Assembly (NCBI GenBank): GCA_016191435.1
Contig: JACPOQ010000046.1
Coordinates: forward strand, 1-64,000
DNA: 64,000 nt
From: Chloroflexota bacterium
GTDB taxonomy: Bacteria > Chloroflexota > Dehalococcoidia > Tepidiformales > Tepidiformaceae
Direction of reading: 5' to 3'
The position numbers were made by a program, and so were the translations under genes. The stretch's first letter is position 1; each line of letters begins with the position of its first letter. Below, piece by piece: positions 20,848 through 22,489 of the stretch. The notes under the pieces were generated by a model. It saw nothing but the letters and a program-made list of their open reading frames with translations, was not told the origin of the DNA and did not search any database.

Positions 20848-21717
20848 CTAACGGCCTTCCGCTGCCTCCAGGCGTGCGCGGCGTTCGAGGTTGTACTTGA
20901 CGATCGGGCTGGCCTCTGCCGGCTGCCAGTCCTTGTACGCCGTCACAGTGTCGATCGGCCACTCGATGTCTGCGTCGAGGCGGTAGCCGGGCTCCTTCGC
21001 CTCGCTCAGCGCGCGTACGGCCAGCCGCGCCACTTCAAGCTGCATCGCCCGGTCGTTCGGCAGCCCAAATGCGTGGCCGAACGGGAATTCCACCCCGACG
21101 ATGCGGGCAAGCCGGAACTTCTCCGCAAGCGCGGGCATCATCGTCACGATGACCGTCGGGATTCCAGCCTCTTCGATCGTACGTGCCAGCACGGGCACGT
21201 TCCTGCAGCAGTCTGGTCAGGCAGGGGCAAGCACCACTGCCTCCACCTCGGCGTCCTTCAGCCGTTGGACGACCTCGGGGCCATAGCGCGTCCGCCACTC
21301 TTTGGCGCCCCGGGCCTGGAAGCCCATGAAGGCATAGTGCTCATCGGCGAGTCGGCCAATAGCGCCCTCCGCCTCGAGCCGGGAGAACGCGGCAATGGGC
21401 AAAGCGACATTGAAATCGATCAGAAAGTCGCGCGTGTTCAGGTGGAGATGCTCTGCGGCGATGTCGTCCTGCTGCACGTCGCGCGGGATGATGCGATACG
21501 TGGAGTCACCCCACAGCGGCTCGCGCTTTTCGCGTTCGACGTCAAAGGGCGGCTGGCTAGCTTTCAGGTAAAGCCCGGCCGACGTGAGAAGCGCCACCGT
21601 CGCCTGGCCGATCGGTGTCGCCAGTGGTGACCACACGGGCGCCTCAGCCTGGAACCCCACGCTCTCGAAACCGGCGCGGAAGCTGCGGGGCAGGAACTTG
21701 AAGCTATCGACCGGCAT
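20848..21717 (-). CDS. Putative selenoprotein of the GrdB/PrdB (glycine/proline reductase B) family
   Basis: Two open frames (21717-21217 and 21216-20848) lie in the same reading frame, separated only by TGA at 21219-21217. Read through, they give 289 residues with selenocysteine at position 167. The N-terminal part has the family pattern VALLTSAGLYLKASQPPFD, STYRIIPRD, NTRDFLIDFNVALPI and YAFMGFQARG. The TGA falls in AVVLAPA-U-PDCC, exactly where GrdB/PrdB-type reductases carry Sec (U-P-x-C variant), and the rest (VLARTIEEAGIPTVIVT, EFPFGHAFGLPND) continues the family. A hairpin suited to be a bacterial SECIS follows the TGA. No selA/selB/selC is in this window. The alternative is a recent nonsense mutation of a Cys or Trp codon. 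Confidence 0.75.
21181..21200 (-). promoter_or_regulatory. Candidate bacterial SECIS hairpin
   Basis: In the mRNA, 16 nt after the UGA, a perfect 7-bp stem (ACGUGCC/GGCACGU) closes a 6-nt loop CGUGCU. The apical loop starts 23 nt after the UGA and has G in its second position, both in the range I recall for bacterial SECIS elements. An additional CCAG/CUGG pairing flanks the hairpin starting directly after the UGA. Confidence 0.6.
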
Positions 21718-21949: not shown

Positions 21950-22489
21950 ATGGTTGTCGCGACTGCGGTCGATCGGGATCTCTCGAGGGTGATGGAGCAA
22001 CTGGCCTACGGCTGTTACATCGTTGGCAGCCAGGACGCCGACGGTGAGCCAAACGGCATGATGGCCGACTGGGTGATGCAGGTCTCGTTCGTCCCCCGGA
22101 TGCTCGCGGTCGCCTTTGAGAACGACGCTCACACCCTGGCCAACATCAGGGCCAACGGCGCGTTTACGCTCAACCTGCTCCCCCGCGACGACGACGGCCT
22201 CCGCCTGGCGGCGCGCTTCGCGCAACCGCACAACGGCGCCAAGGTCGGCGGCCGCGGCAACTCCGGACACGAGCGCATCCACCACAAACTCGAGACGGTC
22301 CCACACGAGCTGGCCGCCAACGGCGCCCCGGTGCTTACCGGCGCCTGTGCCTGGCTCGAATGCGAGGCCGTCGACTTCGTGCCCACAGGCGACCATGTCG
22401 TCGTCACCGCGCGAATCCTCCACGGCCGCCTCGTCACGGTGTCCGACATCCTCACCTCGGAGTTCACCGGCTGGTCATACGCAGGCTAG
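21950..22489 (+). CDS. Flavin reductase-like (FMN-binding split-barrel) protein
   Basis: A 179-residue split-barrel flavoprotein of the flavin_reduct family. Typical features are the N-terminal LAYGCYIVGSQDADGEPNGM, MQVSFVPRMLAVAFEND, and the later GAFTLNLLPRDD segment that contacts FMN. Such proteins reduce flavin with NAD(P)H or use bound FMN in small oxidoreductases. GGAGG precedes the ATG by 8 nt; a GTG three bases upstream is equally possible. It is divergent from the selenoprotein gene with about 230 bp between starts, so shared control and a redox partnership are possible but unproven. Confidence 0.88.
   Translation: MVVATAVDRDLSRVMEQLAYGCYIVGSQDADGEPNGMMADWVMQVSFVPRMLAVAFENDAHTLANIRANGAFTLNLLPRDDDGLRLAARFAQPHNGAKVGGRGNSGHERIHHKLETVPHELAANGAPVLTGACAWLECEAVDFVPTGDHVVVTARILHGRLVTVSDILTSEFTGWSYAG

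Follow-up and report, generated by a model that had tools for sequence, protein, structure and literature searches.

An in-frame UGA in a GrdB/PrdB-like gene of a Chloroflexota bacterium points to an apparently selenocysteine-only U-P-D-C-C clade

Does the TGA that interrupts an open reading frame of a Chloroflexota bacterium (Tepidiformaceae) specify selenocysteine (Sec), and what kind of protein would this frame encode? The locus lies in a window of 64,000 nucleotides, i.e., the whole stretch of DNA analysed (contig JACPOQ010000046.1), in which an earlier note, made from the sequence alone, had proposed a new selenoprotein of the GrdB/PrdB family. Translation with TGA as Sec yields a single protein of 289 amino acyl residues with this TGA as the only internal stop (Table 1), and the two frames that the note had described as joined by it are recovered exact to the base. 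Residue 167 is found in the context APA-U167-P-D-C170-C171-RNVPVLAR. With the standard code (table 11), the same frame falls apart into ORFs of 166 and 116 amino acids, so that an ordinary gene caller would split the gene, as had been anticipated. Orthologues, at most 77% identical, are full-length, share the start and end at a similar position.

Table 1. Coordinates of the selenoprotein gene and of its elements in the window.
Feature	Position	Strand	Evidence
PrdB/GrdB-like selenoprotein CDS, 289 aa	20848..21717	(-)	read-through translation and full-length orthologues
ATG start codon of this CDS	21717-21715	(-)	
TAG stop codon of this CDS	20850-20848	(-)	
In-frame UGA, predicted Sec167 of the U-P-D-C-C motif	21217..21219	(-)	TGA in 80/80 listed contig matches
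Cys170 and Cys171 codons	21205..21210	(-)	both invariant in the clade alignment
Predicted SECIS hairpin, 7-bp stem ACGUGCC/GGCACGU	21181..21200	(-)	fold, frozen synonymous sites, paired stem changes

Profile comparisons place the protein within the GrdB/PrdB superfamily, as it scores 35.9 bits (E 7e-9) with PF07355 (GRDB), for which the gathering score is 22. The best NCBIfam match is TIGR04483, the PrdB family (E 3e-39), but the 134.7 bits obtained fall short of the cut-off of 300, whereas annotated PrdB proteins reach 310 and 425 bits. The GrdB-type family TIGR01918 is matched with 44.2 bits against a cut-off of 65.45. Thus, the family assignment of the earlier note stands at the level of the superfamily and fails at the curated limits of both PrdB and GrdB. 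The PrdB from Terrisporobacter with 425 bits is itself encoded with an in-frame TGA, one gene away from prdA, and its Sec151 and Cys154 occupy the same alignment columns as U167 and C170, so that the UGA is situated where the family has its Sec, as had been claimed. Cys170 is also invariant in comparison with annotated PrdB and probably serves as the resolving residue in the UxxC pair, and Cys171 is specific to the clade. PrdB and the protein studied here are homologous over most of their length. They differ in motif (U-G-T-C-H in PrdB), share only about 31-34% identity (31-32% when aligned with the clade), and the protein studied here is about 50 residues longer; its gene is located outside of any prd operon. 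Homology to the selenoproteins B (GrdB/GrdF/GrdH) of the reductases for glycine, sarcosine, and betaine is found in the C-terminal half, which includes the UxxC site. However, they comprise about 435 residues, and no GrdE-type proprotein was found to accompany the 289-residue protein.

The best surviving alternative is that the gene encodes a true subunit B of D-proline reductase, the PrdA partner of which is divergent or unassembled. The TIGR04483 match and the identity to annotated PrdB, with Sec and Cys aligned, would agree with such a reading, but the score below the cut-off and the search for a partner make it improbable. PrdA was not found in the genome that carries the locus, a draft of 3.8 Mb in 98 contigs with 89.8% completeness, and no PrdA above the cut-off was found in 400 genomes of the phylum. 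A pyruvoyl proprotein of the PrdA/GrdE type (PF09338) was found neither in this genome nor in seven other carriers of the gene, although the same search was positive for two further members of the phylum, of which one, G404, also has the selenoprotein gene. Since the genome is a draft, the missing proprotein is no proof of its absence. D-proline reductase was rejected on account of the low score together with the missing partner, and for the same two reasons the protein is, as judged from sequence, best described as belonging to a U-P-D-C-C clade that is sister to PrdB/GrdB and apparently uses Sec only, and not as PrdB or GrdB itself.

In the window, the selenoprotein gene stands alone; a glycosyltransferase gene converges on it from downstream. 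A gene for a protein with a flavin-reductase domain (21950-22489) is situated just upstream in divergent orientation. Clustering of the ORFs around 97 loci revealed no general neighbour gene, and no gene of the PrdA/PF09338 type was found among the neighbours examined. Instead, neighbours are lineage-specific and encode PhzF-like and luciferase-like proteins, FAD-linked oxidase, CoA-transferase III, or MsrB. For example, in one soil/Dormibacterota lineage (L053 577-1973 and similar loci) a PhzF-like gene lies immediately upstream in the same orientation, and genes for MsrB and luciferase-like proteins are often nearby. These Dormibacterota neighbours are a possible hint to function.

Is the UGA translated, then, or is it a real stop, which would leave a pseudogene or two separate genes? 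The two ORFs obtained with the standard code are what a real stop would produce, but the conservation of the codon argues against it. Besides the genome under study, 18 further genomes among 148 relatives carry this gene. Their matches, some full-length and some fragments, are identical to at least about 48%, and all those that cover the site have TGA at this codon. More distant members of the superfamily that span the site in these relatives also have TGA there, except for one. When 84,980 species genomes were scanned with the pattern TGN-CCN-GAY-TGY-TGY-N6-GYN-CCN-GTN-YTN-GC, i.e., [U/C/W]-P-D-C-C-x-x-[VA]-P-V-L-A, which permits TGA, TGC, TGT, or TGG at the site, 83 stretches were reported, and among the matches listed all 80 loci have TGA, with the frame open on both sides and both halves conserved; neither a Cys nor a Trp codon, nor any other sense-codon version, was found at the site in these 80. 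When 400 genomes from the phylum were searched with a profile, every match spanning the site had TGA as well. The occurrence of TGA at exactly the same codon in 19 related genomes and 80 contigs is not due to chance. The earlier note had been wary of a different residue in sister lineages and of a sequencing error at the TGA; homologues from sister lineages carry the UGA at this position too, and since the same TGA is present in independent genomes, i.e., in all 80 listed matches, a sequencing error is excluded and a pseudogene was rejected.

A second line of evidence is provided by the hairpin ACGUGCC-CGUGCU-GGCACGU, which starts 16 nt after the UGA and whose stem of 7 bp, loop of 6 nt, and position were confirmed by folding exactly as first described. 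Bacterial SECIS elements (bSECIS) are constrained to loops of 3-9 nt, stems of 4-16 bp, a distance of 16-37 nt from the UGA, a G within the first two loop positions, and a minimum free energy of at most -7.5 kcal/mol (PMC13188914). The hairpin agrees with all of these constraints, as its loop (CGUGCU, 21193-21188) starts 23 nt after the UGA and has G as its second nucleotide with U next to it, and as its folding energy is -10.5 kcal/mol. The bSECIS prediction that the earlier note had recommended for the region after the UGA thus gives a fitting element, and this element is conserved at the nucleotide level. In 83 distinct sequences, the synonymous codon entropy of the hairpin codons V-P-V is 0.10, 0.09, and 0.00 bits, whereas 51 other conserved columns have 1.55 bits on average and never less than 0.79; the third positions of these three codons had been left free by the genome search pattern.

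Among 23 distinct hairpin variants, 90% of the stem cells pair, and changes on both sides occur at three stem pairs. The stem covariation score is 0.180 versus 0.118 for shuffled alignments, none of 500 shuffles reaches 0.180, and the score peaks at the named register and becomes lower when partners are slid by 1-3 columns. One C-G pair is replaced by U-A together with amino acid changes on both arms, and the outermost pair is lost in most variants. The stability of the element in the present gene exceeds that of shuffled sequences modestly (z = -1.62), and the evidence for the hairpin resides in its conservation and not in the stability of a single copy. When 39 genes were randomly recoded with synonymous codons, hairpins became weaker by about 5 kcal/mol on average and 6.5% were equally stable. 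One detail of the first description has to be given up: the CCAG/CUGG pair said to flank the hairpin lies outside the predicted fold, and most homologues have CCG or CCC after the UGA.

The earlier note had also supposed that the organism makes Sec and had proposed a search for the sel genes. All of them are present, i.e., those for SelA (513 bits, cut-off 268), SelB (309 bits, cut-off 242), and SelD (343 bits), as well as a tRNA-Sec with the anticodon UCA (69 bits, above the Rfam cut-off). An in-frame UGA is common in SelD, and the selD of this genome (L020 1501-2433) is a selenoprotein gene itself, with an in-frame TGA in an SCGGU motif (TSCGG-U). Matches to selA are found in 45 of the 46 named carrier genomes, in 44 of them above the cut-off. 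Among the 19 carrier relatives, own genome included, selA is present in 16, and none of the remaining three genomes is more than 81% complete, compared to 90 of the 148 relatives overall with selA above the cut-off. Both selA and the PrdB-like U-P-D-C-C gene were sought without success in another species of this genus (G001), the genome of which is 94% complete. With the conserved TGA, the frozen hairpin codons, and a complete set of Sec genes in the same genome, a real stop is very improbable, and UGA167 almost certainly codes for Sec, as far as Sec insertion can be predicted from these sequence data.

The genome encodes a second GrdB/PrdB-like selenoprotein outside the window, with the motif U-P-V-C-H-Q (L002 1411-2331; G000:C27:105803-106522). 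It belongs to the same superfamily and also has an in-frame UGA and a hairpin, but is only 29% identical to the U-P-D-C-C protein. Its hairpin, AUCAGAC-CGUGA-GUCUGAU, has a different stem, also of 7 bp, at the same place after the UGA. Tandem GAGTGCT repeats precede the start of this second gene, which is situated just downstream of a gene for a luciferase-like oxidoreductase. In G001, the homolog of this paralogue (L153 1742-2641) has TGC (Cys) at the UGA site and an eroded hairpin, apparently a recent change from Sec to Cys or its reverse. If UGA were recoded as Trp or Cys, by suppression or in the manner of code-4 lineages, the frame would stay open as with any other read-through. This is the least credible of the alternatives, as residue 167 falls in the column of the PrdB Sec, a dedicated Sec-type UCA tRNA exists, and in the sister genome without detected selA the corresponding codon of the second paralogue is one for Cys.

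Carriers of the U-P-D-C-C gene are widespread in Chloroflexota and Actinomycetota. Among the listed loci, those of Chloroflexota are from Dehalococcoidia, Anaerolineae, Dormibacterota, and soil lineages, and those of Actinomycetota are mostly from Acidimicrobiia and also from Rubrobacter. Single bins labelled Alphaproteobacteria and Acidobacteria are listed as well; their copies (L084 and L104) group with those of Actinomycetota in a phylogenetic tree, reflecting either horizontal transfer or misbinning. In this tree of 78 rows, a clade of 74 separates from other PrdB-like proteins with a support of 100/99, on a long branch of 1.07 changes per site, with the reservation that the outgroup rows are long. 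The U-P-D-C-C clade seems to be Sec-only, as judged from the codons at the site.

An AlphaFold model (pLDDT 91, pTM 0.90) predicts an α/β protein in which residue 167 is located between strand 160-164 and helix 168-183. Such a junction of strand and helix is a usual place for a redox-active Cys or Sec. A fold search against the PDB gave no match at E values up to 0.001, the best TM-score being 0.35. Weak sequence matches to phosphotriesterases were judged spurious.

The reading that we favour is that SelB together with Sec-tRNA-Sec would read UGA167 as Sec, directed by the hairpin 16 nt downstream, and that Sec167 would pair with Cys170 as redox partner, perhaps also with the clade-specific Cys171. 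The protein would then most likely be a selenol/thiol-dependent reductase that acts on a small molecule and cycles via a Se-S bond, and it would probably work without the pyruvoyl partner used by PrdB and GrdB. As a whole, a selenoprotein of the GrdB/PrdB superfamily with hairpin-directed Sec and a Sec167-Cys reductase site is a highly probable explanation. The Se-S redox chemistry is likely, and so, to the same degree, is the independence from a pyruvoyl partner; the enzyme is probably a stand-alone selenol/thiol reductase. If a pyruvoyl partner is indeed absent, the protein would be neither a D-proline nor a glycine reductase, and homology to PrdB alone does not imply proline reduction of the Stickland type. 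It seems rather likely that the U-P-D-C-C proteins constitute a distinct Sec-only clade of Chloroflexota and Actinomycetota, which has no Cys form among the listed matches and would carry out a different reduction without a pyruvoyl proprotein.

Proteins of this kind have been known for some time. Sec-containing 'PrdB' with UxxC motifs were reported from the Sargasso Sea (42 genes; PMC1088965) in 2005 and from GOS data (235 sequences; PMC2398784) in 2008, and they resemble the U-P-D-C-C proteins in their UxxC motif, their richness in Sec, and their origin from free-living bacteria. In the accessible parts of these reports they appear as one family named by homology, in which the U-P-D-C-C clade, the absence of PrdA, and the host lineage are not defined; these sequences may already include the clade. 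Thus, of the 'new selenoprotein' of the earlier note, the reading as a selenoprotein is supported, whereas its novelty is reduced to a new clade within a known selenoprotein family. New are the U-P-D-C-C clade, its apparently strict use of Sec, and the missing partner. A literature search that covered few subscription papers found no report of the clade in Chloroflexota or Acidimicrobiia and no description of its apparently strict Sec use or its independence from PrdA. According to the accessible part of the GOS survey, members with Cys far outnumber those with Sec in most selenoprotein families (PMC2398784), and in comparison a clade with Sec in all 80 listed copies and Cys in none is unusual and well suited to studying why bacteria retain selenium. 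As gene callers would cut at the UGA, annotations probably show only fragments of an enzyme that is widespread among bacteria of soil and water. Other PrdB-like proteins of the phylum (family f81, L178-L188) share the motif U-G-[LI]-C-N-Q and a hairpin of the CAGUCC-GUG-GGACUG type; they form a further clade with Sec, the SECIS of which differs in sequence.
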